Source: Methanospirillum hungatei (GTDB lineage Archaea; Halobacteriota; Methanomicrobia; Methanomicrobiales; Methanospirillaceae). From it: a stretch of DNA of 64,000 bases. Of the stretch, positions 14,612 to 33,483 are shown piece by piece. Below the pieces are notes generated by a model. The model worked only from the letters and a program-made list of their open reading frames with translations, made no database searches and had not been told where the DNA came from. The DNA lies in the NCBI RefSeq assembly GCF_019263745.1, contig NZ_CP077107.1, positions 806,001-870,000 of the forward strand, read 5' to 3'. Both the position numbers and the translations under genes were made by a program. Positions within the stretch are counted from its first letter, which is position 1. Every line of letters begins with the position of its first letter.

Positions 14612-14635
14612 CGTGCGACAAGTAGGAATATTTCT

Positions 14636-15609: not shown

Positions 15610-15770
15610 TTGGTATAGTACTCCTGTGTCAATAGATGCGGAGTTTGGATAGATTAACTATTCCAATGGGAACTATAAGCTATGAGTAACCGACAATTCA
15701 TTTTTGATAACAGAGCAAAAAAGAGAGTAATAGTTTTATCGTTCCAACACTCGACAGCAAGGAGAGTTGG

Positions 15771-16608: not shown

Positions 16609-16986
16609 TTATGGGCCCAGCCGGATTCGAACCGGCGACCTCCGCCGTGTAAAGGCGGTGTCATAACCAACTAGACCATAGGCCCGGCCTCTACAGGTTA
16701 GTTTCTCACCCATATAAACCTGTCTGGGGTTTTCTACCATTTTCGGGTCAGGATTAATATATTGGATACCACAAGGTATGTTTCCAGACTGCAACGCGGG
16801 TAGAAAACCAGTCTTTGATTCAGCCTCAACATCCACTAACACGTAGGACTCGGATATTTTATATATTGCAAAGACTTTTCCTATTAATTTCTTTTTCATA
16901 TTCTCTACAGGAAACCTAAAATAAGTATATACATATCCAGGTTTAGGTTCAGTCTTTTTAGCTTGGGTTAATCCAATAAATTCCAT
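16609..16986 (-). CDS. int(N): N-terminal half of an SSV-type integrase split by integration
   Basis: Starts at ATG 16986 behind a good ribosome site (TTGAGGT, seven bases away). Residues 1-100 (MEFIGLTQAKKTEPKPGYVY...) are element-encoded; from residue 101 the frame enters the tRNA repeat (RAYGLVGYDTAFTR) and continues through the tRNA to a chance stop. The repeat is in the same phase at the other end of the element, so in the circular form this frame runs on into int(C), giving 436 residues. Residues 1-100 resemble no domain I know. In the integrated state this fragment is expected to be nonfunctional. Its codons for Val90-Tyr91-Met92 contain the tRNA TATA box. Confidence 0.8.
   Translation of the reverse strand: MEFIGLTQAKKTEPKPGYVYTYFRFPVENMKKKLIGKVFAIYKISESYVLVDVEAESKTGFLPALQSGNIPCGIQYINPDPKMVENPRQVYMGEKLTCRGRAYGLVGYDTAFTRRRSPVRIRLGP
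16612..16685 (-). tRNA. tRNA-Val (anticodon TAC)
   Basis: A 74-base gene with complete cloverleaf: acceptor GGGCCTA pairs with TGGGCCC (one G-U), a D-arm, anticodon stem CCGCC/GGCGG around the loop TTTACAC giving anticodon TAC, and T-arm GCCGG-TTCGAAT-CCGGC. Discriminator base is A; CCA is not encoded. It is the integration site of the adjacent element. The 5' 42 bases are duplicated at 31303-31344, so this copy has been rebuilt using element DNA for its 5' part and promoter. Confidence 0.95.
16644..16685 (-). repeat. Left attachment core (attL) inside tRNA-Val
   Basis: A 42-base perfect direct repeat of 31303-31344, covering tRNA nucleotides 1-42 (5' end through the anticodon arm). Identity stops exactly at 16643/31302 on one side and 16686/31345 on the other, as expected for an attachment core left by site-specific recombination. 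Confidence 0.93.
16711..16718 (-). promoter_or_regulatory. TATA box of tRNA-Val, inside int(N)
   Basis: The minus strand reads TTTATATG, 26 bases upstream of the tRNA 5' end. It lies within the int(N) coding sequence, so the element brings its own promoter for the tRNA it rebuilds. The displaced chromosomal box (31372-31379) has nearly the same spacing. Confidence 0.65.
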
Positions 16987-17005
16987 TCAAATACCTCAAT
17001 TAAGA

Positions 17006-17575
17006 TTACTCACAGGTGTGGTGGTTGGTATGCGTGGTTTTGGATGGATCATTTTGGTAATTTAAAAGATATTTTAGCCAATCAATAACTGATGTTCCTT
17101 TTATTAAGCATTCATTACCTTTCTTGCCATTGGTTTTGAGTTCACCGCTTGCTACTGCCTTGGAGACCTTTGATTTCCGAGTATTAATGTTCATTGAATC
17201 GGGTAACATTTCAGCAACATCCTTCTGTCTATACCATTCATTATGATTCAATGGAGGGTCGCTATTGGGAATATGATCTTGATCAAAAGAGATGATGGGT
17301 TCAGGTTCGATAGGTGCTTCATGTGCTTCAGTGATGATCTTTGTTGGTGTCATTGATGCAAACTTTTCTTCTATTACTTGCATCCGGTGAGTTAGATTAT
17401 CAACTTCGGATCGAAGATCATCATTGTGTATTATTTGTGTATTTTTTAAACCTCCCAAGTAATCTTTTAAAGCTACCTCAATAACTGAGCTGCGTGTCAT
17501 ATCATGATCCTTGGCATGTCGATCTAACTGATCATTGATCGCTTCACTAAGTGTAATATTGAATCTCCCTCTCAT
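17006..17575 (-). CDS. Ribbon-helix-helix regulator (paralogue A)
   Basis: 189 residues. The N-terminus RFNITLSEAINDQLDRHAKD then RSSVIEVALKDYL is a ribbon-helix-helix (CopG/MetJ) DNA-binding fold. A linker of about 60 residues leads to a C-terminal domain (WYRQKDVAEMLPDSMNINTR...SKVSKAVASGELKTNGKKGN) shared with the protein at 17824-18327. The gene sits 19 bases upstream of int(N) on the same strand, so it may be co-transcribed with it and control it. Six TGTGTA/TACACA words cluster directly over and upstream of its start, suggesting autorepression. Likely a plasmid copy or integration regulator. Confidence 0.75.
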   Translation of the reverse strand: MRGRFNITLSEAINDQLDRHAKDHDMTRSSVIEVALKDYLGGLKNTQIIHNDDLRSEVDNLTHRMQVIEEKFASMTPTKIITEAHEAPIEPEPIISFDQDHIPNSDPPLNHNEWYRQKDVAEMLPDSMNINTRKSKVSKAVASGELKTNGKKGNECLIKGTSVIDWLKYLLNYQNDPSKTTHTNHHTCE

Positions 17576-17676
17576 GTGTATAATGTGTGTAGAGCATACT
17601 ACTTAATTGTTTGTGTATATTATGTGTAAAATATATGTGCGCGATCTTGTGCAAAATTTGTGTAGAGGAATACACA
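17575..17676 (-). promoter_or_regulatory. Cluster of TGTGTA operator-like repeats
   Basis: TGTGTA occurs at 17575-17580, 17586-17591, 17612-17617, 17623-17628 and 17659-17664, and as TACACA at 17671-17676. Six hexamers within about 100 bases immediately upstream of an RHH gene fit the iterated short operators that RHH dimers bind cooperatively. Binding is inferred. Confidence 0.5.
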
Positions 17677-17823
17677 TTAGAATAAAAATTGCATGGTAAC
17701 TGAATAATAGTAGGACTAGCGGGTCTAATTACGAATTAATTTTAAAATTTGAATACTTTAAGCCGAAATGATGATAAAAGATACAGAAAGATAACTGTCA
17801 ATACATAAAGAAAATAAGGTGTT

Positions 17824-18327
17824 TTATTCATCATTGACTTTTCTATACTTATTTAACCATTTAATAGCAGAAGATCCTTTAACCCTACATTTCTTTCCTT
17901 TTTCTCCATTTGTTTCAATAAAACCTTGTGCGACTGCTCTTGAAACGGTTGCTTTTTTAGAGTTAAATTGCATTGCATCTGGCAAGTGTTGGAATAGATC
18001 ACTTTGCCTATACATTTTATTAGGTTCCAATTGTTCAATCATAGAAATATAATCCATTTTTCTTGGTTTTGACAATTCACCAAATACTGACATAATATGA
18101 TCATCAGGATTCAAAATCGCCTCTATTCTATTCAATCGCTCATCCTGGTTTTCTATTTTTTTTAACAGTTCATTTGAATTGTTTAGAGGAGGAGATTTAC
18201 TTTTATCAAATAAGTCAATCAATGCAATTTCAATTACTGAACTCCGAGAAATCCCATTATTTTTAGAATAATCATCCAATTTTTGATTTATCCGATCACT
18301 TAATGTAATTGTATACTTATTTCGCAT
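17824..18327 (-). CDS. Ribbon-helix-helix regulator (paralogue B)
   Basis: 167 residues with the same plan as 17006-17575. It has RHH N-terminus KYTITLSDRINQKLDDYSKN...RSSVIEIALIDLF, a short coiled linker (LLKKIENQDERLNRIEAIL) and the shared C-terminal domain MYRQSDLFQHLPDAMQFNSK...ATVSRAVAQGFIETNGEKGK. The two genes are a diverged tandem duplication about 250 bases apart. This one is divergent from the helicase gene, so it may control the 18328-18523 intergenic region where GTTAAC boxes lie. Target sites are inferred. Confidence 0.75.
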   Translation of the reverse strand: MRNKYTITLSDRINQKLDDYSKNNGISRSSVIEIALIDLFDKSKSPPLNNSNELLKKIENQDERLNRIEAILNPDDHIMSVFGELSKPRKMDYISMIEQLEPNKMYRQSDLFQHLPDAMQFNSKKATVSRAVAQGFIETNGEKGKKCRVKGSSAIKWLNKYRKVNDE

Positions 18328-18454
18328 AACATATCATTGGTCAGACAAATACATATATTTTACTTCCATATAGAATGAAGAAACAAATCTGACAGTCTCA
18401 AATAATTAAAATTTGAGCCTAATATTTAACAAAAAGATTAATATCAACAGATCT

Positions 18455-18485
18455 GTGTTAACTACCAAAAAGTATATTTGTTAAC
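18455..18485 (+). promoter_or_regulatory. Paired GTTAAC boxes upstream of helicase gene
   Basis: GTGTTAACTA (from 18455) and TTGTTAACTA (from 18478) are near-identical words 23 bases apart, about two helical turns, and 40-70 bases before the helicase start. The TTGTTAAC word recurs as a perfect inverted pair before the primase-like gene (20512-20535). They could be operators or replication-protein sites. Confidence 0.4.
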
Positions 18486-18523
18486 TATACCTACGTATTA
18501 TAGATAACAATCACAGACAGGAT

Positions 18524-20446
18524 GTGAACAGTTCAATTATGGATGACCAAAGAGATTATGAAAAGATTCTGATATCTCATCCCAAGATTTACAACAGTTC
18601 ACATACTGGTGGAAATAAAACCACACGTGCAATACAATTTATCGAGGGTCAAACCCGCAAACAAAGAAATGTTATCGTAATTATGCAAAGTTACGACATT
18701 TTAGAGGTAGCATATCTGAACAAGTTTTCTTCACTTGTTAAATCAAGAACTATCATATTAAAAGGAAGAACTCAAGATGGCGTATGTGATTTTGCAAAAG
18801 CTCTCTCAAAATTTTATGAATATACAATCCCTAAAGTGGAATGTAATTGTGGGCATGAAACAAACTGCCAATATAAAGAAAATATTGAACGTATCAGTGA
18901 TTCAGATTCGACGGGTTATGGTATAGTAATACTCACAACACCGAAGTTACTTTATTACGCATTAAGTATAATTGACAGTTCCATTCCTACAATAATTATT
19001 GATGATGTTCCATTTTCTGAAGTTGTTTGTAACAATGTGAATATTCTAAATGGAAATTTAGACCATTTAATTCAATACTGTAATGATAACAATCTCCCAA
19101 ATTTAAGTACTATCAGCACTCTTGCTAAAAAACAAGATATCAGCGGTATAAGGAGTTTATATAATTGTTATAACACTTCGATAAAGGATGAATTTGATAG
19201 ATTAAATAACATATTATTACATCAAGATTTTGCTTCAGTATTTAACGCTTCCACGAAAATACTTCCAAAATTTCATATTTTACATTTAATCGATAACGCA
19301 ATAAATGGTAACGAAGATATCCAATTATATGAACCTCAAATACCTAACACAGGATTTGAATTAAAAATATTCTCAATTAACAGGTCATTATCAAATTATT
19401 CATTAATATACCTTAATGCTTCAAGGACTTCAGAAGACGATTTCTACTTAAATCGTATTGATAAACATTGGTATAAAATTGAGACAGATGCAACTCCCAA
19501 TCCCAATTTTGTATTACTAGCAATTAATGATGCATCATATTCTCAGGCAACGATTTGCGATCATAATTCAAAATTTGCTGATAAAGTCATTGAAATAGTA
19601 GAACAGTTGGATATCTATTTTAAGTTTCTTAACCAGGAAGTAATTTTTTTTACTCATTCCAGATCCTATGATGAAAAATTTTCTAACAGCAGGTTGAACA
19701 GAACAAATCATAAATTTGTTCCATTTCGAAGCGATAAAAGCAAAGCAACGAATGAATTCATTGATACCCCTATATCGGTGATTGTAGGGACCCCTTATCT
19801 TCCACCAGATTATTTCATCAGTCCACCTTTCGAACTAGAATGGAAACCATCATCAGACATTATAAAAGAAGTTGAAGATAATAAGACCAAACCCTATAAA
19901 AATCCGATTTACCCCGTTAATAGAGAAATATCTGATAATTGTGCTATTGAACACTTAATTCAAGTTGTTGGAAGGACTTTTCGAAAAAAAAACAATGGTC
20001 CCGAGAGAAAGAAACTCGTAATCTTATTTTCGAATCTAGATATCAAAAACGCACTATTTCAGCAAAATGGATGCGAGTATCTCTCTTTTAAAATAAGATC
20101 CCAAACAAGTCGAAACGGCTTTTATACACAATTGGAAAGAGAAATAAAAAAGGTTCTTTTTCCTTTGATTTTTGATAAAATTATTGATGACATAAAAATT
20201 AGATTGGAGAGTGATGATCATGTAAAATTGTATGAATATTGTGTTGAAGTTTCAAAACAGTTGGATGGAAAAATTGGATTTAAAACAATCGAACGAGAGA
20301 TAAAGTCTCGATTACATGATTATATCCAAAAAATGCCAGTAGGCTTTAATAATCGTAACATACTGGTCATAAAGAAACCCAATCTTCCATGTTTTGATGA
20401 TAATGACACAATATTAAAACCTATTCAATCATTGGAGGGAGAATAG
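18524..20446 (+). CDS. Fe-S-type SF2 helicase-like protein (XPD/DinG-like)
   Basis: 640 residues from GTG 18524 (ATG 18539 is an alternative). The P-loop is HTGGNKTT at 27-34, with Asn in place of the usual Gly before Lys. After it comes LKGRTQDGVC (79-88), reminiscent of the LKGR-x-NYxC segment of DinG/XPD helicases, then cysteines at 107, 109 and 115, which with Cys88 could hold a 4Fe-4S cluster. Motif II is IIIDDVPF (157-164) instead of DEAH, and motif VI QVVGRTFR is near 480. It likely unwinds DNA for replication of the element. It stands before a primase-like gene, forming a replication block. ATPase competence is uncertain given the altered motifs. Confidence 0.6.
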   Translation: MNSSIMDDQRDYEKILISHPKIYNSSHTGGNKTTRAIQFIEGQTRKQRNVIVIMQSYDILEVAYLNKFSSLVKSRTIILKGRTQDGVCDFAKALSKFYEYTIPKVECNCGHETNCQYKENIERISDSDSTGYGIVILTTPKLLYYALSIIDSSIPTIIIDDVPFSEVVCNNVNILNGNLDHLIQYCNDNNLPNLSTISTLAKKQDISGIRSLYNCYNTSIKDEFDRLNNILLHQDFASVFNASTKILPKFHILHLIDNAINGNEDIQLYEPQIPNTGFELKIFSINRSLSNYSLIYLNASRTSEDDFYLNRIDKHWYKIETDATPNPNFVLLAINDASYSQATICDHNSKFADKVIEIVEQLDIYFKFLNQEVIFFTHSRSYDEKFSNSRLNRTNHKFVPFRSDKSKATNEFIDTPISVIVGTPYLPPDYFISPPFELEWKPSSDIIKEVEDNKTKPYKNPIYPVNREISDNCAIEHLIQVVGRTFRKKNNGPERKKLVILFSNLDIKNALFQQNGCEYLSFKIRSQTSRNGFYTQLEREIKKVLFPLIFDKIIDDIKIRLESDDHVKLYEYCVEVSKQLDGKIGFKTIEREIKSRLHDYIQKMPVGFNNRNILVIKKPNLPCFDDNDTILKPIQSLEGE

Positions 20447-20511
20447 GATGATTTGAAATTTCACTTTTGAAATATCCCTATTATAATTAATAGGGAGTAT
20501 TTTTCTAATAA

Positions 20512-20535
20512 TTGTTAACATCAGTTAGTTAACAA
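20512..20535. promoter_or_regulatory. Perfect inverted repeat TTGTTAAC/GTTAACAA
   Basis: TTGTTAAC (20512-20519) and GTTAACAA (20528-20535) form a perfect palindrome with an eight-base spacer, between the helicase stop and the primase-like start. The same word occurs upstream of the helicase gene, so one regulator or initiator may act on both. Confidence 0.45.
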
Positions 20536-20607
20536 AACGTGAGGCACTAATGGAATAATATATTGAGACAATTAGATATTGTCCTTAAATTAAGAAAAGG
20601 AAAGCAA

Positions 20608-21552
20608 ATGAAAAAGTTTGAATCTCATAACATACCTGATGAGTTAAAAGTGTATGATTCGTGGGTAGTATGGAGATATATTCAACGAAATGGAGGAAGA
20701 AATGGTAAACAGCCTTTCATCTCATCAACCTGTTATCCTAGTAGGAGAAGGCCAATTCCAGCTAAAACTACCGATCCAAAAACATGGAGCAGCTTTGATG
20801 ATGCTGTACAATATGGAAAATTATCTGGAAACGGAGGAATTGGATTTGTATTTTCTCCAAATATTCCATATATTGGATTAGATATCGATGATTGTATAGT
20901 AAATAGAGAGATAATTGCTCCAGTGAAAAAGTTGTTGGATGACTTAAATACTTACTCCGAAATCTCCCCGAGTGGAACAGGAATACGCTGTATTCTCAAA
21001 TCCAATTATTCTGGAAACCAGAATATATCAGGATATAATAACATTCGTAAAATCGAGATATCAACAGATAGAAGATACGTTACCATTACAGGGTTTGTTA
21101 TTGAAGGTTATCCATTAGAAATCAATGAAAATGACAAGGTAATGGACGAAATTGTGGTACAAATGGAAAACTCACCCACCACCCCACTGTGTGTAGTTTC
21201 TTCTGAACCCTTAAGCCAAATAGATGTTGATCTTTTAACGGGGCCCGAAGAGTTGAATGATGTCGAGATAATTGCAAAAATCTGGTCGAGTCAGAAGGGT
21301 AAAAGATTATGGATCGGAGACATCTCACTGTTTGACAATGATCACAGTAGAGCAGACATGGCACTTCTCTGTATGATCGCTAACTGGTCTCGAAATATTA
21401 ATCAAATCGATCGTCTATTTCGAAAAAGTAAGTTATTCCGAGAAAAATGGGAACAAAAGTGCGGTATGATCAATGGAGTTGAGTGTACATATGGGTATAT
21501 CTCAATAATCAAGGCATTATCTCGTACCAAGGACTTTTTAAAATACCGGTAA
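20608..21552 (+). CDS. Primase-polymerase-like replication protein
   Basis: About 314 residues from ATG 20608, preceded by AAGGAAA; a TTG at 20563 would add 15 residues. The N-terminal part has the pattern of archaeo-eukaryotic primase-polymerases of mobile elements: WVVWRYI...GKQPFISS, TTDPKTWSSFDDAV, GIGFVFS, YIGLDIDDC (catalytic Asp pair), SEISPSGTGIRCIL and RYVTITG. The C-terminal part (DHSRADMALLCMIANWSRNI...FRKSKLFREKW) resembles the helical bundle found in NrS-1-type polymerases. A C-terminal helicase is absent; the adjacent helicase gene may supply that activity. Likely primes element replication. Confidence 0.7.
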   Translation: MKKFESHNIPDELKVYDSWVVWRYIQRNGGRNGKQPFISSTCYPSRRRPIPAKTTDPKTWSSFDDAVQYGKLSGNGGIGFVFSPNIPYIGLDIDDCIVNREIIAPVKKLLDDLNTYSEISPSGTGIRCILKSNYSGNQNISGYNNIRKIEISTDRRYVTITGFVIEGYPLEINENDKVMDEIVVQMENSPTTPLCVVSSEPLSQIDVDLLTGPEELNDVEIIAKIWSSQKGKRLWIGDISLFDNDHSRADMALLCMIANWSRNINQIDRLFRKSKLFREKWEQKCGMINGVECTYGYISIIKALSRTKDFLKYR

Positions 21553-21645
21553 TTACGATGATTTTTGGAATGCCATATTGAAAACCCGGTTTTACTGAAA
21601 TTATAATACCCCTTTTTTAATAGGTAATATTATGAGGGAAAAAAT

Positions 21646-21870
21646 ATGCAGATGATATTAGAAAAATTAAAAGAGAGAGCTCTGAATACAAAAAATCAAA
21701 AGGAATTCATTGCGTTGACTAGGCAGATTATCAAGATTGAAGAATTAAGGGTGAATCAAGAAAGGATGAGTGTGCTAGAATCTCGTATGGAAAAAAAAGA
21801 ACAATTTGTACGAGAAATTGACAAAGCGATAATGACTCAAATTTTAAATGAATCTTCGGTGATCGGATGA
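21646..21870 (+). CDS. Small coiled-coil protein
   Basis: 74 residues, MQMILEKLKERALNTKNQKE..., almost entirely charged helix with heptad-like leucines and isoleucines. No known domain. Its stop overlaps the next start (ATGA at 21867-21870), so the pair is translationally coupled. A TATA-like TTATAATA lies about 45 bases upstream. Probably an element-specific accessory or regulator. Confidence 0.55.
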   Translation: MQMILEKLKERALNTKNQKEFIALTRQIIKIEELRVNQERMSVLESRMEKKEQFVREIDKAIMTQILNESSVIG

Positions 21871-22025
21871 CTAAGACTAAACTGGTGAAATTAGCAGAAC
21901 GGATGGAAAAATTAGAACATAAGGTGACGAGATTGAAGCGGATGATGAATAATGAAATTTATCGTCATAAGTTCATAAAGGCGTGGTGTGAGAATATACC
22001 TAATGTATCTATTCATGAAATTTAG
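21867..22025 (+). CDS. Very small helical protein, coupled to the previous gene
   Basis: A 52-residue frame beginning MTKTKLVKLAERMEKLEHKV and ending VSIHEI. Basic, helical, heptad pattern in the first half. The start codon overlaps the stop of the preceding gene (ATGA). No recognisable family. It converges on the ApeA-like gene, whose stop is 61 bases further on. Confidence 0.5.
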   Translation: MTKTKLVKLAERMEKLEHKVTRLKRMMNNEIYRHKFIKAWCENIPNVSIHEI

Positions 22026-22086
22026 AAATACTAATGATAATAATCTGAATAATATTAGAAAATAGAAGATTGCAGAGATAGAGATA

Positions 22087-23502
22087 TTAGTTATTTATGG
22101 AATAGAACGTTCTAATATTCCCATATTTATTAGTCCGTTGAATCATTTCATTTAATTTATCAGAAGAAATTCCAATCTCTCGGAGTAAACATAATTCTAG
22201 AATAAATTTTAATACGATTATTCCATATATGAAATCCGATCCTTCTAAAATTTGATCTCTTAATCGCTCATCACGATGGGCATGGAAATTTCTTGTGTCA
22301 ACGATTTTATTAATCAATTGATCTAAATTTTGAACGTAATTAGAAAGAATGTTATGATATTCAGAATTCAAAGATACCATTAATTCCTTTAATCGTTTTC
22401 TCAAACTATATTCGTTTAAGTAAGTAAACTTACCTTTTAAGCTTTCTTTAAAGTCACGTTCTAATGATGTTGGAATTGATTGAATTAAATCAATCTTCAA
22501 AAGATCAAATTCAGATTCTATAACATATTTACCATTGAATCTTACTCTATGATAGGACTCAATAGCTTGAATAAGAGAATTAAATTTATATGTGGATAAT
22601 GATCCATCATCAATCATAACTAGGTGATATAATTCAATAACAGATTGAATTGAATTGAATTCTCTATTCCAATTATTTAATGAATCTTCGAATACATCTG
22701 AAATATCTAAATATGTAAATAGCATCTCTGATGGATGTATTGCTTTAATATTTTCATTATATCCTAATATTCGAAAATGTATTTTAATTTCCTGTTCTTC
22801 AACAACTTCAGGATTTTGTGATTGGATAAAACCAATAATTTTTTTGGGGAATATTGGATTACCCAATCCTAAAGATATGTATGTTTGAATTGGAAAGATT
22901 ACTTGTTCGAACACACTATCAAATCGTATCGGACTTTGAGGAATTATTTTAAAAAACCAATTCCAATTAATGGATAAACCGGAGATATTATTGTGATTAA
23001 AATTTATGTTCATCTTTATTTCAATATTACAATCTCCTATGGTTATTGTAATAGATTGAGGGAAATTAACTAATGCCGTCTGTGTCCCTTCAATTCTACC
23101 CTCTCTATCATAATTTAACTGATAGGTCATTGGATGTCGAGCAAACCATTCATTTGTACGAGTGAATTCAATTTTTATTAAGTTATATTCAATATTTTCG
23201 GGAGCCTCCGAGTGGATTCCCTCAAATATTCTCGATACAGCAAAATCACTGGAGTAATAACCAGGAAATGAAAAGCTATTTGTAATATGAAGGCAATTTT
23301 CAAGAGTGTAGAGTTTACCATTTTTCGTATTACCAAAAATGATGTTTTCCCTACTTACCCGTAGTGAAACATCAATTTCGTAAAATGAACCATTTAATGT
23401 TAAATTTCCTCCATCCCTTGAAGAATATGATAGTCTTCCACTAATTTTTCTTTCTGGATTCGATGGAAGCCACCAATATCCCTCACAATCAATCTCTTCC
23501 AT
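22087..23502 (-). CDS. apeA: ApeA-like HEPN anti-phage protein
   Basis: 471 residues. The N-terminus (MEEIDCEGYWWLPSNPERKI...GNLTLNGSF) matches the opening of the ApeA N-terminal domain as I recall it (W-WLPsnPe...G-L...g-xL-L-GsF). The C-terminal third is helical and contains DTRNFHAHRD, an R-x4-H HEPN ribonuclease motif at about Arg404-His409. ApeA proteins are single-gene abortive phage-defence effectors in which HEPN cleaves RNA on infection. Here it is carried on an archaeal integrative element, alone on the minus strand. The HEPN motif is seen directly; the family name is from memory and should be checked. Confidence 0.7.
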   Translation of the reverse strand: MEEIDCEGYWWLPSNPERKISGRLSYSSRDGGNLTLNGSFYEIDVSLRVSRENIIFGNTKNGKLYTLENCLHITNSFSFPGYYSSDFAVSRIFEGIHSEAPENIEYNLIKIEFTRTNEWFARHPMTYQLNYDREGRIEGTQTALVNFPQSITITIGDCNIEIKMNINFNHNNISGLSINWNWFFKIIPQSPIRFDSVFEQVIFPIQTYISLGLGNPIFPKKIIGFIQSQNPEVVEEQEIKIHFRILGYNENIKAIHPSEMLFTYLDISDVFEDSLNNWNREFNSIQSVIELYHLVMIDDGSLSTYKFNSLIQAIESYHRVRFNGKYVIESEFDLLKIDLIQSIPTSLERDFKESLKGKFTYLNEYSLRKRLKELMVSLNSEYHNILSNYVQNLDQLINKIVDTRNFHAHRDERLRDQILEGSDFIYGIIVLKFILELCLLREIGISSDKLNEMIQRTNKYGNIRTFYSINN

Positions 23503-23959
23503 AAATATTATGTGGAAAAGGATTTATTAAAACATTTATACTTAAATTGAGATATCAATATATCTTATTTACTACATCTATAGGAAGAAATGGAAGATTC
23601 TTAAAAGATCTGTAATTATGCCATTGATACCATTGAGATGGAGGGACTATTACAAATCCATCAAGGATAAGATTAATTCCAGGAGAGAGTTCTATTTGCT
23701 TCATCTCATGACCACGATAATAAGGTTTTTCTAAAATAATTTTTCTTAAATATTCACCTAATTGGTCTGGATTAGTGTGGCCTGAATATTCAAAGTACTC
23801 GGGTTTTATTGAGGTCAGTTGTGTCGTTAAAAATTCAGAATCGCATTTAAAGTAATAATCATATCCAAGGGGTGTTTTTACAATTGCAGTTTTTGGTAAT
23901 GTAAGAAATTGGTTTTCGTACTCTATTAATCGATCATTTCTATACCTGAACTCGGCATT

Positions 23960-25390
23960 TTAACCCATAGGTATTTGGTCGGTGAAGAGGCTGAGTATTT
24001 TTGTTGCTCTCTTAGGAATCTGTGCAAAACTTTTTGTTCCACGTGCATCATGAATTATCTCAATTTTTGAAAGTTCAAAAAAGACTTCTTCTACAGAGAT
24101 AATCTGATTTAAGTTTAATATGCGAAGTTTTCTTAAAACTGAAAAGTATATCCTCAGTGCCAATAATGATATGAAAAAATAACCTCTAACACTTTCTTCC
24201 GACTGCAAATACGATTTATCTGAATCTATTGGGTTTTTTAATGCATCAAATGCAAGTTCCACATCTTCCCTCTCTTTATATAAAAGAAAAATTTCTGCTG
24301 GAGGTTTAGCAATGTCAGATAATATTGGAATTATTCCCGAAAATTCGCATTTATTTTGATATTCACCTACATTCAGGCCTCTTTTAAGTGAATTTTTTAG
24401 TAAAGTAGATTCTTTTTCCCCCTTCAATAAGGGATCCATATAAAGGTAGAGGTAACCATATTGATTATTAACACACGTACACAAAATCCCTCTATTACGA
24501 TATAAAAACCCTCCATCCCATACTATTTTAGATTTTTGTAAGAATTTTGAATTCTTTTTTAATGGGACAAGGTAGTGAATACCTCTTTTTTTTAGTTCAT
24601 TCAACAATGAATACGAAGAGAAGCCCCGATCCAAAATTAATCCAATATCGTTGTCTTTAAATCGATTTAAGAAATTTTTTATTGTTTTTATATCTCTCAT
24701 AGATCCATATGAGACATCGCATCCGATTGGAAGACCGGTATTCGATGAGAATGCCATTGAAACCCCAATTTGTTCGTTTTTATCATGGTCTGCATTATAT
24801 CCCTTTTCAGCTAACTTTATTGATTCAGAATAAGTAATAATCGCAGTTAAGTCGTAAAATATCAAATCGTCGTCTGAAGCTAATTCTGCAAATAAGTCAT
24901 ACCACCAGCCAACTTCAGAACCGATTTGGTGAAGTACCTCTCCTAAATGTTTAGGCAACAATTTGACATTGATTTGATTGGATAAATCTAACTTTTCCCA
25001 TCGTGATTCAATTAATCTGAGAGGTTTAGGATCTAAGGCTTTTACGATAGCCATAGTGACTAATTCCTTGAAATATGGAGTATATTTTTCTAATAATGAT
25101 TCAAGATCCTTGATGTATGAATAGGCTAGCATCCCATTAGCATATTCAAATATTTCTCTGTTTGAAACTATTTTTGAGGCTGAATTTTTTTTGGGTTTAA
25201 ACGTACCATCACGAGTTATGGATCCAATATAGTGTGTCGTTTTTTTCGATTTTTTTGTTTGTGGATCATACACACTTGAAGCGCGATAAACATAAAAACC
25301 ACCTTTGATTTGATGAATTTCTACGTTATGTTGAAGATTTTTTTTCAAGTTTTGAAGGGTGTGCCGCACCTTATCAGGGATCATATTCAT
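23960..25390 (-). CDS. IS4-superfamily (IS1634-like) DDE transposase
   Basis: 476 residues. Catalytic residues of an RNase H-fold transposase are visible: first Asp in LIFYDLTAI near 180, second Asp in GLILDRGFSS near 258, and the YREK signature YKEREDVELAFDALK (Y-x2-R-x3-E-x6-K) near 368 containing the catalytic Glu. The gene is intact and fills most of a 1.59-kb insertion sequence; its stop codon overlaps the left terminal repeat. A TATA-like box lies in the 150 bases between the start and the right repeat. It catalyses cut-and-paste movement of the element. Confidence 0.9.
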   Translation of the reverse strand: MNMIPDKVRHTLQNLKKNLQHNVEIHQIKGGFYVYRASSVYDPQTKKSKKTTHYIGSITRDGTFKPKKNSASKIVSNREIFEYANGMLAYSYIKDLESLLEKYTPYFKELVTMAIVKALDPKPLRLIESRWEKLDLSNQINVKLLPKHLGEVLHQIGSEVGWWYDLFAELASDDDLIFYDLTAIITYSESIKLAEKGYNADHDKNEQIGVSMAFSSNTGLPIGCDVSYGSMRDIKTIKNFLNRFKDNDIGLILDRGFSSYSLLNELKKRGIHYLVPLKKNSKFLQKSKIVWDGGFLYRNRGILCTCVNNQYGYLYLYMDPLLKGEKESTLLKNSLKRGLNVGEYQNKCEFSGIIPILSDIAKPPAEIFLLYKEREDVELAFDALKNPIDSDKSYLQSEESVRGYFFISLLALRIYFSVLRKLRILNLNQIISVEEVFFELSKIEIIHDARGTKSFAQIPKRATKILSLFTDQIPMG

Positions 25391-25549
25391 ATCCTACTAC
25401 TGGGTTAAAATACACTGTGTTAATTTATTAGTAGAATTATAAATATTTTGCCCTGTTCTAGAAGTTCATTTTTTAAACTCCTTAAAAATTGAATATTTTT
25501 CAAAACAAAGGGTAAAAATATTTGAAGGAAACTTACAATACTGGGTTAA
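23960..25549 (-). mobile_element. IS1634-like insertion sequence
   Basis: The ends are TTAACCCA (23960-23967) and its complement TGGGTTAA (25542-25549), a short inverted repeat. A third copy, TGGGTTAA at 25402-25409, lies just upstream of the transposase start and may be an internal transposase site. Length is about 1590 bases, holding one transposase gene. It splits a Prim-Pol-like gene. Family size fits IS1634-like elements. Confidence 0.75.
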
Positions 25550-25936
25550 CTAAGAAAAGTTAGGGTTCTATAATTACTTGAAATCACTCGCAATACAACA
25601 ACATCAATGTCAAATCCTACTTTAATAGCATAATATACCCCTAAATGCCCATCTCTTAAAAATTCCTTAATATCTGAAGTTGCTTTATCCGGAGGTTCAC
25701 ATAAATAAAAGTCGTATGGATTTAAATTTCCAGAATTATCATTATAATCAACAGAAATTATCTTTAATCCAATATCCATAAAATCCTTATGAACCGTCAT
25801 TAAATTGGAGTTAATTGAGACCGATTTTACCATAATAAAGGATGTTTTTTCCATGATATTAAGATAAAAACCCTCCATTATGTTATCAAAAACAAACTGT
25901 GAACTTATCTAATGTTCAGTGAGAGCAAAAAATTAG

Positions 25937-27253
25937 TTAATTTTGAGATTCTGAAAATAATTTTAACATCTTTGAAGAAGGGTAAGTTGATAACGAAGCG
26001 ATATTGTTTGCTAGTTCTATAGGAAGAAGTGCACCTTCATATCTATTACTTATAATTTTTGGAATTGTTGAAATAATCCGTGTGTAACCGATCAAATCAT
26101 CCGGTTGCGGATTTTGTTTATACTTTCCAAATGGTATATTCAAAACCATCATATGGTAGTTGTTTTGTTTTATGAATAATTTCGCTCCATAATTAGTATC
26201 CTTTCCATAAGGTGCACCTCCTATTGGACGACACTGAATATGTTTTTTAATATATTCATCTTGTAACAGAAGAAAGGATTTTTTTGGGGCATCAGGACCA
26301 AGAAATTGCAGATGATCATAAAACATGCCAGATTTTTCCTGACCCATCATATGAATAGGATAACCTGAAGTTTTAGCATATTCAAAGAATTGTCTAATTG
26401 GCTCTACTAATTTTGAATATTGTGCTCTAATTGATAATGGACCATCTTTTATAAAAAGACACTCACTGATTAAATCTTTATGATTCTCCCAAAATATACG
26501 TAATGCTGTAAATAGAAGAAGAGTTTCATGGATAATCATATAAGTAGATGCTATTGTTGGGGGAGCCGAATCTTCACCCATATCAAGATGAAAACCAAGA
26601 AAGTCAGTAATATATATTTCATTTCCACAGACAGAACATATTCCTTTATCTGAATCATAAGGCAGAGAGGTCAAATGTTTTTGATCTTCATGACCATATG
26701 GACATTGAAATTCAGGTAAGCCATCTCTAGAATCACTCCATTTTTTATAAGCTATCCATTTTAACGTATCAAGGATTTGTCCATCCATATTAGGTGATGT
26801 ATCACAAATAGAATGATAAATCGTATCCCTAATTGTATCATAAATGGTTTTACCTTCAGTCCAGGTATTCCTTAATGGTAATATTGTTGAATGGGATGTT
26901 ACTGATTCTCGAAGAATGTCTTGTATTACAAAAGGGTGAGGAGTCTCTGGATCTACTTTTTCTAAAGCATAAGTATCCAGTTTCAATAAAGCAGTCTTTA
27001 TAAAAGAAACTGATGAATAGGGATATTGATCATGATCAATTTGTTGAAGAGATCCATCCACAACAAAAATGTATTTCAAAGTCTCTTCAGCAGCAGGTAA
27101 TGGCGACCAATTAATTGTATTACATTCTTCTGGTCGATATTGTTGATTAAAATTCGCTAATAGTTGTTTGACTAATGGATAATCCATAACCTCAAGATGT
27201 CCAAGTCTACTTGCTCGCTCACCAGGTAATCTTGAACCCTGTTGATACGGCAT
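25937..27253 (-). CDS. nurA: NurA-like nuclease with zinc-binding insert
   Basis: 438 residues. NurA catalytic features are present: IFVVDGSLQQ with Asp66, and LFIKDGPLS near 275 with the second essential Asp, followed by the C-terminal stretch YHMMVLNIPFGKY. Between them lies CPYGH...ICSVCG (around 190-215), a four-ligand zinc-ribbon-like insert that typical NurA proteins lack. NurA is a 5'-3' exo/endonuclease that works inside the HerA hexamer during DNA-end resection. Its start overlaps the herA stop as TAATG at 27251-27255, so it is the last gene of dam-herA-nurA. Here it is likely a defence or element effector rather than the housekeeping copy. Confidence 0.8.
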   Translation of the reverse strand: MPYQQGSRLPGERASRLGHLEVMDYPLVKQLLANFNQQYRPEECNTINWSPLPAAEETLKYIFVVDGSLQQIDHDQYPYSSVSFIKTALLKLDTYALEKVDPETPHPFVIQDILRESVTSHSTILPLRNTWTEGKTIYDTIRDTIYHSICDTSPNMDGQILDTLKWIAYKKWSDSRDGLPEFQCPYGHEDQKHLTSLPYDSDKGICSVCGNEIYITDFLGFHLDMGEDSAPPTIASTYMIIHETLLLFTALRIFWENHKDLISECLFIKDGPLSIRAQYSKLVEPIRQFFEYAKTSGYPIHMMGQEKSGMFYDHLQFLGPDAPKKSFLLLQDEYIKKHIQCRPIGGAPYGKDTNYGAKLFIKQNNYHMMVLNIPFGKYKQNPQPDDLIGYTRIISTIPKIISNRYEGALLPIELANNIASLSTYPSSKMLKLFSESQN

Positions 27254-29262
27254 TAATTACTCCTATCAGTGGATTCAGTACAGCAAAATTTATTTGCTTG
27301 AATCGGGATGACAAATCGATTTGAACGTGTTAATATTCGAACATATCCTTGAGTTTTGGTTTGTAAGATATCCTCAATTAGACCTTCATATGCAACGTTC
27401 AATCTCGCTAACTTATCAACTTCTGGTCTTGAAGATATATGTGTTACAAAAAAGTTTTCCGTTTGAGCTAATAAATCTTGACTGATAGTTGAAGGAGATT
27501 GTGTGGAATATACCATTCCTAAATGGTATTTTGCTCCTTCTTTTGATATTCTATTATAGATACTTGTTACCTTACTATCATCAGAAGGGAATAGATTATG
27601 TGCCTCTTCAAAGTATAATTGAATATAATGATCTGACAATTTATTTTCTGAAAATAATTCCACTTGGTGTTCAAAAATAGATTTAGACAACCATTGTGAA
27701 AAATAATTCATGACTTCTGGATGAGCATTACTTAAATCTAAAATTATTGTCTTCCCGAGCGATAATGAATTGAGTATTTCAGTAACAAAATTTGCTGCAT
27801 CTTTATCATGATAAATTCGATAGGGCAGAATTTTTCTAGGTCCACTTGCAGATTGTGATCTGGGTACCAAAAATTCTAGTAATGCTTCATCATCAGAATC
27901 AAATAAGGGATTATTATTAGCACTTTCTAACCTTGGTAAATGTGAATTTCTATTTCGTTCAGCAAAGAGTTGTAACTCAATAAGCAATTCATCTAAAGTG
28001 GTTACATTTTCAGGCATTTGACGATCATTTGCTTCATAGATCTCTAACCTTTGTTCTCTACCAAAACGTGGATTGACTCCACCATAGTGTTGAAGAGTGC
28101 TAAAGTTTGCAGGAAATCCTGCCTTATGAAGAATTGCCCAATACATCAGAATTTTTCGATTTGCACGAGTTCTATCACCGAAACCCATCTCTTGTATACT
28201 TGCAAAAGACGGAATTTCTACGGAAAGGAAACTAGAGATATAATTTGAAAGGTGTGATTCCTTTTCTCGAATCAACGTACCTAATAAGTGATGAGAAATA
28301 TCAGGATTTGAATAGAAATCTAATCTCAAAGGCTTTGAAACAGTGTTTTCTTTAGGAGTGATTGCATAAACATCACAATCAGAAGAATAAGCAGATGCTA
28401 GGGAAGTACTATCATCTTGCGGGTTATCATTAGCATATTCTCCATTAATATCAAAAATCACCTGACCAACAGAATGCTTTCTTTTATCTGTAGTGGATGG
28501 ATTCAAATGAGTTGTTTTTATCAAACTTTCTGCTATGATTTTAACAATATTACTCTTACCTGTTCGCGTTTTTCCGAACATTGCAGTTCTAGTTCCCTTA
28601 AAATCATCGGTTGATACAATAACGGGAACATTAGGTAATTTACAATCAGGTAATTTCAAACGACATTCAGTAAACCTCAATTTTCCAATTTCAAATAGAT
28701 TTTGTGATGGTTGAATTGAATTAATTATTAAATCAAGAAGTTCATCTGACGGCGAATAAACAAAATATTTATGCGCACTAACAATATTATTCAAATCTCC
28801 AGAAAATTCAATAACATTAGAGAGTTCAGGATGTGGATAATACATGCCTAAAAATGAAGTTTTTAAAGCACCCCATTGTAGTTCACTTTGAGTAAAAACA
28901 TCCAATTCAGGCATTGACTTTTTATGTAATTCAAAATAGGTTTGCTGTTTCTCTTTTTTCAATGGTTCATCAGCTGTTCCATCAACCCTGAGTAAAGAAA
29001 AGTGCGGAGTATATTTAGTATATTCAGCAGGTACCATTATTAGTAAAGAATTACGGGGAATGCCCCCTACAGCAATTTTAAATGCGTCAGAAGTTACAAT
29101 AGTTGCAGTATTATACCCTATTTCTAAAACAAATCCAACAAACCGATAATGTGCATAATCTTTACCTTCGAATTTTCTTTGTTCATCCTCTAAAAAATTA
29201 ATCAATACTCTAATCGGATGGTTTTGTAATGCAATATCGTTGCTTAAAGTTTTCAAATTCAT
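27253..29262 (-). CDS. herA: HerA-like DNA-translocating ATPase
   Basis: 669 residues. An N-terminal beta-rich HAS-barrel region (FVGFVLEIGYNTATIVTSDA) is followed by Walker A GKTRTGKS at 230-237, a long insert, Walker B LYFEEAHNLF near 550, and VYSTQSPSTI with a C-terminal tail, the FtsK-HerA pattern. HerA forms a hexamer that pumps double-stranded DNA and binds NurA. It is longer than the roughly 500-residue housekeeping HerA; the extra residues lie between Walker A and B. Both ends are coupled by TAATG overlaps to dam (upstream) and nurA (downstream), implying fixed stoichiometry. Confidence 0.85.
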   Translation of the reverse strand: MNLKTLSNDIALQNHPIRVLINFLEDEQRKFEGKDYAHYRFVGFVLEIGYNTATIVTSDAFKIAVGGIPRNSLLIMVPAEYTKYTPHFSLLRVDGTADEPLKKEKQQTYFELHKKSMPELDVFTQSELQWGALKTSFLGMYYPHPELSNVIEFSGDLNNIVSAHKYFVYSPSDELLDLIINSIQPSQNLFEIGKLRFTECRLKLPDCKLPNVPVIVSTDDFKGTRTAMFGKTRTGKSNIVKIIAESLIKTTHLNPSTTDKRKHSVGQVIFDINGEYANDNPQDDSTSLASAYSSDCDVYAITPKENTVSKPLRLDFYSNPDISHHLLGTLIREKESHLSNYISSFLSVEIPSFASIQEMGFGDRTRANRKILMYWAILHKAGFPANFSTLQHYGGVNPRFGREQRLEIYEANDRQMPENVTTLDELLIELQLFAERNRNSHLPRLESANNNPLFDSDDEALLEFLVPRSQSASGPRKILPYRIYHDKDAANFVTEILNSLSLGKTIILDLSNAHPEVMNYFSQWLSKSIFEHQVELFSENKLSDHYIQLYFEEAHNLFPSDDSKVTSIYNRISKEGAKYHLGMVYSTQSPSTISQDLLAQTENFFVTHISSRPEVDKLARLNVAYEGLIEDILQTKTQGYVRILTRSNRFVIPIQANKFCCTESTDRSN

Positions 29263-30107
29263 TAAAACATCTCTTCTTTGATTGAAAAAATTATGACTTC
29301 TCCAGGATTTGTGGACAATTGTCCAGGATTAGAACCAGTACCAATATCTGGTTGAAACATACGGTTTTTCTTATAGAGTTTAACAATATCAGGATGTGAT
29401 GAATTAGTCATAACCCATTGAACACCCCTTTTGGTTGCTCTTTTCAAAGCATTGGCTAGTCTTTTTTGATCAGGATAAGCAAAAATACCATAGCGATAGT
29501 GTTCGTTAAGCTGCTCTTTCTGCCCCGGACAATAAGGAGGATCAAGAAATAGAAAATCACCATCCACACTTTCATCAATTATCGCATTAAAATCACTGCA
29601 TTTCAAATCAGCTTTTTTAAGTCTCTTTGCCACATCAATTAGATCTTTCTGATCAATTACCCACCGTCTATCTTGACCACCATATCCAACATTGAATTCA
29701 CCATTGGTATTATATCTCCACATTCCTTTGAAACAAGTTCGATTTAAATAAAGTATTCTCGCTGCCCTTTCTAATAAATGAAGATCTTCTGGATTCATAT
29801 TTCGAATCTCATAATATCCATCTTTATTATCTGGATAACTACAGTACAATTTCCAAACAACTTTAGGATCTTTCCTAATTCCTTGATAGAGATCGATTAA
29901 TTCACTATTTATATCAGATAATACCGCTCTTTTCGGATTTAAATGAAAAAATACTGCTCCCCCACCCAAAAAAGGTTCAACATAATATTGGATATCATTA
30001 AGATTATGAGGAAATAAATGAGAGAAATTTTGAATGAAACGCTGTTTCCCCCCAGGATACCGCAAAATAGAAAGATTCTTTGAACTATTGTTAATATGAC
30101 ATATCAT
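29262..30107 (-). CDS. dam: D12-class DNA adenine methyltransferase in the HerA-NurA operon
   Basis: 281 residues. Motifs: LRYPGGKQRF at 16-24, AdoMet site YVEPFLGGGA at 42-51, catalytic LDPPY at 188-192. It methylates N6 of adenine at an unknown site. First gene of the operon; its stop overlaps the herA start (TAATG at 29260-29264). A methyltransferase in front of a translocase and a nuclease suggests self/non-self marking, with HerA-NurA attacking unmethylated DNA. It is only distantly similar to the other D12 enzyme at 4127-4993, with shared motifs but little else. Confidence 0.87.
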   Translation of the reverse strand: MICHINNSSKNLSILRYPGGKQRFIQNFSHLFPHNLNDIQYYVEPFLGGGAVFFHLNPKRAVLSDINSELIDLYQGIRKDPKVVWKLYCSYPDNKDGYYEIRNMNPEDLHLLERAARILYLNRTCFKGMWRYNTNGEFNVGYGGQDRRWVIDQKDLIDVAKRLKKADLKCSDFNAIIDESVDGDFLFLDPPYCPGQKEQLNEHYRYGIFAYPDQKRLANALKRATKRGVQWVMTNSSHPDIVKLYKKNRMFQPDIGTGSNPGQLSTNPGEVIIFSIKEEMF

Positions 30108-30334
30108 AAAATCGCTTAAACATAATACGAATCACTTCTCACACGATCATTAAATCAATTTACTACATTTGGTTGACTTATTAAAGACACTTAATTTAAT
30201 GACAATCATATGATAATAATTTATTAATATCTTACGAAATGCCTCTGAATAATCTATTTAAAGATTTAAGATTATGGAAAAAACATAACTGTTAAGCATT
30301 TTTTAAACACACACCACCCACCTGTGAGTAATTA
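30108..30334. other. Promoter region of the dam-herA-nurA operon
   Basis: 227 AT-rich bases with no credible gene. Because both flanking genes are on the minus strand, it should hold the promoter for dam and the end of int(C). Several TATA-like words (for example ATTAATAT and TTTAAAGA) occur but none can be singled out. Confidence 0.4.
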
Positions 30335-31344
30335 TTAATATAATTGAACATTACCCCATCTTTCCATATACTTATCATAAAGAGATTCAGACGTGATCTG
30401 CTTATAAGATCTGAATTGAACTGATGATAAACCATGACACATTATCATATTTTTAAAGGTCTCATTAAATTCAAGTAAATCACTTTGCTGTTCAAAAAAC
30501 TTCCTCATATCTTTCAACATAATCTTGTCAGTAGTGTGTCGTAATAAGACAGGATTTTTTGATAACCAGCGAACACATTTATCCTTCTTAAACAACTTCT
30601 TATCTAAATCCTTCCCTTCTACCAACTTTTTCAATAATCGTACTAATACCGGATGAAGCGGCACACGATGACTTATCCGTGTTTTATCCTGTTCTCCAAA
30701 TACTTCAAGGACAGGTTTTTCATTATCTAATACTGAAGTCAACTGCCATACTTCCAATGTTTCACTGACGATCGGTCGCTGACCAGTATATGCAAGAAAT
30801 AGAATTTGAGAGACATATTCTAATTTCTGAACATCAGAAAGATCACTTTGATGAACATGATCAATTATATTAACTATGTCCTCTTTCACAATTATTCGCT
30901 GATTGAGATTTCGTATGCGAAGATTTTTAGGTAAAACAAGTTTGCTTTTCAAGTAATCGATATTGTATCCCTTTTTTAGAGATAACTCATGCATAAATTT
31001 CTTAACGAAATTAAAGACTTTTAATCGTGAATCGCGATCAGTATAATGACTGATTACATAGTCTCTCAATTGAGTGATTGTTTCTTCATCGATGATACCC
31101 TGTGTATAATCCCAAAGTATCTGATATGACTTTCTTTTCCATTGCAAAGAATTATATGCAAGACCTATTGTTTGTTCTTTAAAGTATCGATCTAACTCTA
31201 CTTTGTTAAATACGAAGAAATGTTCGAGATAAGTATTATCTATAGGAGAATTAACGTTGAATTCAGAAGAAGGAAAACCGGCGCTTCTCTCCGGATTATC
31301 GGGCCGTGTAAAGGCGGTGTCATAACCAACTAGACCATAGGCCC
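30335..31344 (-). CDS. int: int(C): catalytic half of the split SSV-type tyrosine integrase
   Basis: The frame is open from the repeat at 31344 (and a few codons beyond, to a TAA at 31352-31354) down to 30335; a TTG at 31147 is the only near start. Catalytic residues, numbered from that TTG: Arg124 in YTGQRPIVSE, Lys212 and Arg215 in LKDMRKFF (archaeal KxxR), His238 in CHGLSS and Tyr248 in FRSYKQ, ten residues on, as in XerD-type enzymes. In the circular element, int(N) supplies the start and 100 residues, and the joined frame is exactly 437 codons with stop. It mediates recombination between the element and tRNA-Val. Confidence 0.88.
31303..31344 (-). repeat. Right attachment core (attR), truncated tRNA-Val copy
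   Basis: 42 bases identical to 16644-16685. It is the 5' part of tRNA-Val without its 3' half, so it cannot make a tRNA. It lies in frame within int(C). Confidence 0.93.
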
Positions 31345-31371
31345 TTGCGCCTTACAAGGTATACTTCTGAC

Positions 31372-31379
31372 CATATAAG
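31372..31379 (-). promoter_or_regulatory. Displaced chromosomal tRNA-Val TATA box
   Basis: The minus strand reads CTTATATG 28 bases upstream of the truncated tRNA copy. This is probably the original chromosomal promoter. After integration it points into the tRNA fragment and int(C), and could drive int(C) transcription. Confidence 0.55.
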
Positions 31380-31391
31380 CATTGCCTATTT

Positions 31392-31832
31392 CTATCCAGC
31401 AAAATTATGATACACATGCACATTAAATAACCCAGATGCCATGTACCGCTGCCTATCTTCTATCATCTCAGTCGGACTGTCAACAGCAGTATACAGATTT
31501 ACCTGGACCCACCCTTTTCCCATCGGTTTCTCAGGTTCAGGGGCTGCGAGTGGGGCCATCTTACCATTCGGTGCAATTATTCCAGCAGGAACAGGAGCGG
31601 TTACATTCAGGGACGGATTTGAATGATCCCTGGATTCATCAGAAAAAACCAACACCGGACTACTCTTTTCTGACACCACTGGAATATCACTTGGAAAATC
31701 CTCAAAAATGAGCAGATTTCTCGTTGGAATAATCTCATCAGGCGTTCCGGAGATCTGCAGAGGCATGATGATAACCGGTAGTACGATGATCAAGAACAGT
31801 ACAGGAAACAGAATATAATGAATTATTCGCAT
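31392..31832 (-). CDS. Membrane-anchored extracellular protein of unknown function
   Basis: About 146 residues from ATG 31832 (MRIIHYILFPVLFLIIVLPV), a single N-terminal membrane anchor or signal; the open frame extends upstream to 31883 but adds a non-signal-like leader. The rest is proline-rich and polar (APVPAGIIAPNG, APEPEKPMGKGW) and ends in a compact segment WVQVNLYTAVDSPTEMIEDR. No family recognised. It lies just outside the right attachment site, so it belongs to the chromosome. Confidence 0.5.
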   Translation of the reverse strand: MRIIHYILFPVLFLIIVLPVIIMPLQISGTPDEIIPTRNLLIFEDFPSDIPVVSEKSSPVLVFSDESRDHSNPSLNVTAPVPAGIIAPNGKMAPLAAPEPEKPMGKGWVQVNLYTAVDSPTEMIEDRQRYMASGLFNVHVYHNFAG

Positions 31833-31952
31833 GCTCCCCCTTGCATGCAGCATCCCAGGGCATAATCCGGTGTATAACCCCACCAGTCACACCTGAGAAT
31901 GCCCGGTATACATTATTCTGGTGGGGCAAGAGAAAAAGTCTCTGGTTTTACC

Positions 31953-32618
31953 TTATGTTCCAGATTGGTGTGTCAGAATATCCCGTCCATGAATGAGCCA
32001 GGATCTCCCTACTTTCCGTGCAGAGATCTTATTTTCTTTAATGTATTTTCGCATGGTCGAGACAGATACACCCAATGCTACTGCTGCTTCTGTCTGCGAA
32101 TATTCCTTATCAGGCCTGACCTTCATAGAACCCATCTCCATCGCATCCATAACCGGAGCGACCGGTTGACGAGGAGTTTTTACCAGTGCCTCTTCAGAAA
32201 GATTCCCAGCCGGAGGGAGATCAGAATCTATGACCCCGGTCACTGATACATGGGTTGCCGGACTAGTCAGTGCCATTGTATTTGAAATCGCTGTGGGAAG
32301 AACCGATGGAAATACAGGACCGGACACATGGGTATTACTTTCAAGCAAGGTAATCCGGCGTTCCAGTTCGGTTATCAAAGCGCCATGCCGGGCAATCGTA
32401 ACCGAGAGCTCTGGCGGGCATGATGGTGAGTGTGGTACATCTCTCGCTTCCCCCACCATTTCCTGAAATGACGGGGCCGTGCCCTGCTGTACAGCCTGGA
32501 CATATGACGAGATAATATCCCGGATAAGTGCTGAAAGAGTAGTACTCTGGTTTTCTGCAATTTCCAGCAGTTCATCAATATGTTCCTCATCAAGAGATAT
32601 TGTCAGATCTTTTCTCAT
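31953..32618 (-). CDS. Transcription regulator: ribbon-helix-helix plus excisionase-like helix-turn-helix
   Basis: About 221 residues from ATG 32618: MRKDLTISLDEEHIDELLEI...STTLSALIRDII is an RHH domain. A variable proline/threonine-rich linker follows, with a short coiled stretch near the RHH domain, and the C-terminus (YSQTEAAVALGVSVSTMRKY...ARKVGRSWLIHGRDI) is an excisionase/MerR-type winged helix. Similar proteins are common in Methanospirillum-type genomes. It is monocistronic and divergent from the HAD gene. Its closeness to attR is suggestive of excision control, but its base composition matches the chromosome. Confidence 0.65.
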   Translation of the reverse strand: MRKDLTISLDEEHIDELLEIAENQSTTLSALIRDIISSYVQAVQQGTAPSFQEMVGEARDVPHSPSCPPELSVTIARHGALITELERRITLLESNTHVSGPVFPSVLPTAISNTMALTSPATHVSVTGVIDSDLPPAGNLSEEALVKTPRQPVAPVMDAMEMGSMKVRPDKEYSQTEAAVALGVSVSTMRKYIKENKISARKVGRSWLIHGRDILTHQSGT

Positions 32619-32787
32619 ATTGTCCAAGACCAAAACGTCTCGTACACCTCCGCTGATTCGCGAATGAAAATATGAGCGATACTTGAATATGGTTTTACCG
32701 ATACCCTCCGTAATCAGACAATATATTTCTTCGTCCATAAGCAGAGAGAACCATAGTATGGTACGAAAGAAACCTTAGTACCCTCAC

Positions 32788-33483
32788 ATGCCAAAGATAC
32801 CATACAATATTCCAGATGCAATTCTGTTTGACCTGGACAATACACTCTGTACATTCATAGATGCGAAATTAGCCGCCTGTAGGGCTGTTGTTGAACACCT
32901 GGGAGCAGGAGATGAAAACGAGCTGTTTGAGTACTTTCTCCGCCCGGTTCATTCATTTGAAGACAACCATCACATTCTTGATTACATCGACGAGAAAAAA
33001 ATAACCACGCCGACAGATACCAGTCAGATAACTCGCCTCTTTGAAGAAGTAAAGATCGCACATGTCACGCCATACCCAGGAGTGCATGAGACCCTTAGCC
33101 ATCTGAGCGGGCAGGGGATCAAAATGGCTGTCGTTACTGATGCTTCGATGCCACAGGCTATCCGACGATTACACAAATGTAACCTTGCACAATATTTCCA
33201 GGCGGTTGTCACTCCGGACAAATCTGGGAGATCAAAACCTGACCCTGCCTCATTTATCCTCGCACTAGATGAACTCCAGGTTTCTGGCACTATATGGCTT
33301 GTGGGGGATTCAATCAGGAGGGAAGTACTGCCAGGAAATCAACTTGGATTTGTTACCGTCTATGCCCGATATGGCGATTACTTCTCGTGTAATAACCCTA
33401 ATTGTTCACCATCATATATAATAGACCGATTTCCTGATCTTCTTGAGCTTGAGGGGCTGAATTCAATAAAAAAGACAGGTTAA
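32788..33483 (+). CDS. HAD-superfamily hydrolase
   Basis: 231 residues. HAD motifs in order: ILFDLDNTL at 12-20 (nucleophile Asp), VVTDASM near 114 (motif II Thr), KPDPASF near 150 (Lys) and WLVGDSIRRE near 171 (metal-binding Asp). A helical cap lies between motifs I and II, class I as in phosphoglycolate phosphatase-like enzymes. The substrate is unknown, probably a small phosphorylated metabolite. Its end overlaps the end of the histidine kinase gene by four bases (convergent). Confidence 0.8.
   Translation: MPKIPYNIPDAILFDLDNTLCTFIDAKLAACRAVVEHLGAGDENELFEYFLRPVHSFEDNHHILDYIDEKKITTPTDTSQITRLFEEVKIAHVTPYPGVHETLSHLSGQGIKMAVVTDASMPQAIRRLHKCNLAQYFQAVVTPDKSGRSKPDPASFILALDELQVSGTIWLVGDSIRREVLPGNQLGFVTVYARYGDYFSCNNPNCSPSYIIDRFPDLLELEGLNSIKKTG

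Follow-up and report, generated by a model that had tools for sequence, protein, structure and literature searches.

In archaeal suicidal tyrosine integrases, the attachment site (att) lies in frame inside the integrase gene, and the gene is split upon integration. Among archaea, use of the 5′ half of a tRNA gene has been described as unique to pTN3-like integrases, and the tRNA of pTN3-like elements is stated to be expressed by read-through from the integrase promoter (Badel et al. 2021, a review; PMC8371274). Cossu et al. (2017; PMC5495485) give a 41-bp att and a tRNA-Leu parted from its original promoter, and their in vivo complementation suggests that the TKV4 Int(C) is expressed. The idea that a displaced tRNA promoter drives int(C) is already published for pTN3/TKV4. 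In bacteria, the host tRNA promoter drives transcription of the int gene of the integrative and conjugative element ICEKp1 when the element is integrated (PMC13023037). Here, we describe a comparable locus in Methanospirillum hungatei (NCBI RefSeq assembly GCF_019263745.1), whose genome is a single contig of 3.39 Mb. The window, as we call the whole stretch analysed, is 64,000 nucleotides long (NZ_CP077107.1, positions 806,001 to 870,000 of the forward strand) and holds an element of ∼14.6 kb whose integrase gene is split into int(N) and int(C) at tRNA-Val(TAC).

The reading we favour is that of a variant of the 5′-half suicidal integrase whose integration swaps one promoter for another. The element would have recombined into the anticodon region of tRNA-Val(TAC), so that the tRNA is rebuilt behind a TATA box (TTTATATG) and a second box (TGTAGAGGC) lying in int(N) codons, while a half-tRNA followed by int(C) now stands behind the native promoter. 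The replacement promoter would then make the tRNA, and the displaced promoter would still fire, giving an int(C) RNA that is presumably translated poorly or not at all. We assign this explanation as a whole a probability of roughly 0.7; what the DNA itself shows is the arrangement of the parts, that the displaced promoter is the native one, and how well the replacement promoter matches in sequence.

The two att copies (Table 1) form an exact 42-bp repeat that corresponds to the first 42 bases of tRNA-Val, and a half-tRNA leader does precede int(C), as the sequence-only reading had claimed. The int(C) frame is open from a stop at 31354, across the half-tRNA, down to 30335, and int(N) and int(C) have equal phase relative to the repeat; a free circle would thus carry one gene of ∼436 codons, a figure obtained by arithmetic with the pieces left unjoined. 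By the published description, the likeness to pTN3/TKV4 of the Thermococcales extends to a 5′-half tRNA att (41 bp there, 42 bp here), a split integrase, a tRNA parted from its original promoter (here judged from congener synteny) and an int(C) behind a tRNA promoter. The two differ in target and host (tRNA-Val in a methanogen here, tRNA-Leu there); here, in addition, the relatives mostly carry antisense 3′ parts and a tRNA-type promoter is visible in int(N). The suicidal integrases of SSV and pT26-2 are similar in having their att within the integrase gene and a tRNA as target, and the catalytic domain of the SSV1 integrase (3vcf) ranks with the best structural matches, but the window element uses the 5′ half in sense, and the tRNA promoter is hence displaced. 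As for ICEKp1, the source, as far as available, describes a tRNA that retains its promoter and an int that is whole, unlike the arrangement here.

Table 1. Features of the split integrase, its tRNA target and both promoters, in window coordinates.
Feature	Position	Strand	Remark
int(N), 125-codon frame	16609..16986	minus	ATG at 16986; sense through entire tRNA
Intact tRNA-Val(TAC)	16612..16685	minus	sole gene with a TAC anticodon among the genome's tRNA hits
att on int(N) side, 42 bp, 5′ half of intact tRNA	16644..16685	minus	
Element body between both att copies	16686..31302	none	unmatched at all five congener loci compared
Replacement second box, TGTAGAGGC, within int(N) codons	16687..16695	minus	at −10
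Replacement TATA box, TTTATATG, within int(N) codons	16711..16718	minus	at −33
Ribbon-helix-helix (RHH, CopG-type) protein just ahead of int(N)	17006..17575	minus	
int(C), catalytic part of split tyrosine integrase	30335..31302	minus	
T6 run inside int(C)	30494..30499	minus	sole run of at least five T between 31344 and 30335
att on int(C) side, 42-bp half-tRNA copy	31303..31344	minus	in frame with int(C)
Displaced second box, TGTAAGGCG, probable start region	31348..31356	minus	tRNA promoter matrix
Displaced native TATA box of tRNA-Val(TAC), CTTATATG	31372..31379	minus	orthologous stretch in five congeners

The displaced region can be identified as the native tRNA-Val(TAC) promoter because the same upstream flank, with orthologous promoter boxes, directly adjoins an intact tRNA-Val(TAC) in five congeners (G198, G200, G206, G203 and G208). 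This confirms the earlier proposal that CTTATATG is the original chromosomal tRNA promoter box, placed just before the truncated tRNA copy and aimed at int(C), and rules out a chance AT-rich stretch. Twenty-seven bases separate CTTATATG from the first half-tRNA base, int(C) has the same orientation, and the second box, TGTAAGGCG, resembles the box ahead of other tRNAs in the genome. In G208 the downstream flank matches too (83% over 371 bp), making it a natural empty site; G201 and G207 have tRNA-Val(TAC) in another context. In G205, the syntenic tRNA (L105, G205:C33) is called Glu(TTC) by ARAGORN, not Val(TAC).

Both promoters were scored with matrices built from the upstreams of 46 other tRNAs of the genome, with the spacing between TATA and second box held to 20–25; this training set retains near-copies as well as two tRNAs located behind another tRNA. 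A sigma-70 scan is inapplicable to archaea. In the 46 upstreams, a TATA box tends to be accompanied by a second box resembling TGTATAGGC, the commonest spacing being 23 bases (13 of 46). The displaced region (31345–31404, minus strand) scores 10.88, a mid-range value that 20 of the 46 other tRNA promoters exceed, and the ‘strong’ promoter proposed earlier is therefore not borne out. The same score is reached by 65 of 5000 dinucleotide shuffles, 166 of 40,000 random window 60-mers and 34 of 127,984 window positions.

By comparison, the replacement pair TTTATATG and TGTAGAGGC scores 18.69, which none of the 46 other tRNA promoters surpasses and none of 5000 shuffles reaches, and it is the sole site at or above this value among the window positions. 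Native tRNA-Val(TAC) promoters at seven congener loci score 7.25 to 13.63. Since this is the only tRNA-Val(TAC) gene found, something upstream must transcribe the rebuilt tRNA. A recent copy of the promoter from another tRNA-Val gene of the order was ruled out: matches at E <= 1e-10 occur in 17 of 232 genomes and, the window aside, none spans the promoter boxes, the longest extending 15 bases upstream. Nowhere do the available parts of PMC8371274, PMC5495485, PMC13023037, PMC6972569, PMC3968343 and PMC10865867 speak of int(N) containing a tRNA-type promoter, although no search was aimed exactly there.

On the other side of the element, transcription from the displaced promoter into int(C) is plausible; the first 600 nt lack any stretch of five T's, and the earliest is a T6 at 30499. 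Efficient translation of Int(C) appears doubtful because no in-frame start is usable before a TTG at 31147 (+197), which lies behind out-of-frame ATGs at 31338 and 31323; an ATG follows at 30994 (+350). An in-frame TTG at 31357 meets a stop at once, and no Shine-Dalgarno is visible by eye at TTG 31147 or ATG 30994. The coupling of the promoter to the catalytic half put forward in the sequence-only reading thus holds for transcription but not for a well-translated Int(C). A special RNA structure in the leader was ruled out, as its fold is ordinary (z −0.40) and Rfam, at gathering scores, matches the intact tRNA alone in 14000–33000. It is somewhat probable that the displaced promoter fires but the joint half-tRNA and int(C) RNA is an untranslated by-product, or that the site is silent. 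Both the poor translation signals and the ordinary leader fold point in this direction; the intact int(C) frame speaks against it, though a recent insertion would account for that too.

By its sequence, the same tRNA gene hosts both polarities of the integrase family. In G203, the orthologous tRNA-Val(TAC) carries a 3′-half element with an integrase of this family (L208, L104 and L042; G203:C42, 215834–226087), in which ∼10 kb lies between two copies of a 52-bp repeat of the tRNA 3′ half, one at 215866 and the other at 226036. There, an antisense frame enters the tRNA, int(C) (L042, one internal stop) is next to the distal copy, and the native promoter has stayed ahead of the tRNA, which is the contrast with the window expected if polarity decides the promoter's fate. 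Capture of the 5′ half strips the tRNA of its promoter, and such elements therefore face a problem that is absent for 3′-half elements. The window locus offers a concrete candidate answer to the lost promoter, namely a tRNA promoter written into integrase codons, and the G203 relative, using the same tRNA gene from the other side, makes both polarities directly comparable.

More broadly, polarity was surveyed in 61 distinct related integrase domains with an N-terminal part, the window included, using a library of 76 tRNAs. The upstream tRNA was antisense as a 3′ half in 20, as a shorter part in five and as a full tRNA in three; it was in sense as a 5′ half in three and as a full tRNA in five. 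No tRNA was recognised upstream of 23, a number that probably includes overlooked cases (by eye, L044, L155 and L161 seem to be antisense 3′), and two had too little upstream sequence; the row of L166 entered with a domain score of 1. Among the 36 relatives with a recognised tRNA, it is consequently antisense in 28 and a sense 5′ half in 3. Two integrases, L165 and L167, lie in frame directly behind an intact sense tRNA-Leu, unlike the split arrangement.

Besides the window, the 5′-half cases, both with a geometry as in the window, are G232, with a split integrase in tRNA-Asp (L151 and L168; G232:C11, 708–25786; 25 kb), and G410, with a split integrase in tRNA-Glu(CTC) (L169 and L171; G410:C1, 46436–59218; 46-bp att, 12.7 kb). 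Over the 100 bases before the tRNA, the element side and the displaced side agree at 97 positions in G232 and at 27 in both G410 and the window. An in-frame ATG occurs at +26 in G410, within the half-tRNA, and the first in G232 is at +263. In a 35-row tree, the two 5′-half rows present need two changes, forced by starred branches; the window row sits on a long branch, and the program flagged its placement as unsure. The tree was built without L033 (among the closest relatives), L158 and L166 (domains cut too short), and G410 is therefore absent from it.

Several findings weigh against the reading of CTTATATG as the TATA box or against promoter exchange as set out above. Without the spacing rule, the TATA matrix favours TAGAAATA at −50 over CTTATATG, and with the rule it picks TGCTTATA, two bases upstream of CTTATATG in the same stretch; beyond the tRNA, the comparison with G198, G200 and G206 covers no more than 317 to 1468 bases. 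When int(N) is recoded synonymously, with the peptide kept and the element's codon usage applied, 18.69 is reached in 312 of 20,000 cases (median 12.6). The int(N) peptide alone thus accounts for much of the match, and selection acting on the replacement-promoter DNA is suggested, not proven. Seven of 40,000 random window 60-mers also reach this score, probably those overlapping the site itself. With our matrices, which for G410 and G232 come from another genus, the G410 element side scores −6.58 and its displaced side 4.73, and both G232 sides score 3.03, which does not establish embedded promoters as a general feature. Finally, read-through from ahead of int(N) could also yield tRNA-Val.

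That tRNA-Val is expressed solely by such read-through from the integrase promoter, with the embedded boxes arising by chance, seems unlikely to us. The RHH gene and int(N), directly upstream and in the same direction, would permit it, and the recoding control, the weak element side of G410 and the published text on pTN3-like elements (PMC8371274) are in its favour, but as a tRNA promoter the boxes outscore every other site in the window, and they stand at the right distance. Beyond promoter exchange itself, int(N) might be under dual selection, for its protein and for the tRNA promoter, with the integrated element taking over transcription of an essential single-copy tRNA; we hold this to be rather improbable. 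Were it true, losing the element by any route except precise excision would deprive the host of the tRNA, and tRNA supply might respond to the neighbouring RHH protein.

The int(C) product is predicted to fold as a tyrosine recombinase catalytic domain (predicted local distance difference test, pLDDT, 88.5). With this model, the best Foldseek match is 4a8e, an archaeal Xer (E 8.8e-5, template modelling score 0.44); VIA-align gave Z 17.2 and a root-mean-square deviation of 9.3 over 231 for 4a8e, and Z 14.1 and 3.0 over 158 for the SSV1 integrase catalytic domain 3vcf. The Pfam family Phage_integr_3 (PF16795) does not match the window protein and matches three of the 13 members of set A1 (best E 0.0013). 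R124, K155, R215 and Y248, which we take to be the catalytic residues, are unchanged across the 17 rows of alignment A3; the alignment for folding left out L194 (internal stop) and L196, L202, L204 and L208. An intact frame, these invariant residues, the geometry with its displaced promoter and the TKV4 precedent (PMC8371274 and the accessible part of PMC5495485) would fit a displaced promoter that yields enough Int(C) to aid excision, alone or with integrase from another element, but this is distinctly improbable given in-frame starts only at +197 and +350, behind out-of-frame ATGs.

The genome holds no second relative of the window integrase at E <= 0.001. A plasmid search with two integrase relatives gave no match, and no useful match came from tblastn against plasmids and phages, from viral contigs searched with A1, from a PDB sequence search or from genome contigs searched with the single integrase protein. 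Among the relatives, L114 and L116 (G072:C50, 17354 and 25303) and L115 (G217) are integrases that lie behind a common sequence without a recognised tRNA; this sequence, repeated 8 kb apart in G072, is possibly another att target. Seven genomes of one genus (G232, G241, G250, G259, G267, G273 and G279) hold several integrase copies or remnants each, with at least six matches. As cargo, the window element carries, besides the RHH protein, a primase-like protein, a HerA-like ATPase, a D12 methyltransferase, a DDE transposase (23960–25390) and an ApeA/HEPN protein (22087–23502), the last of which, with its matches to PADLOC PDC-S58 and Cas13-ApeA, is likely a defence gene.
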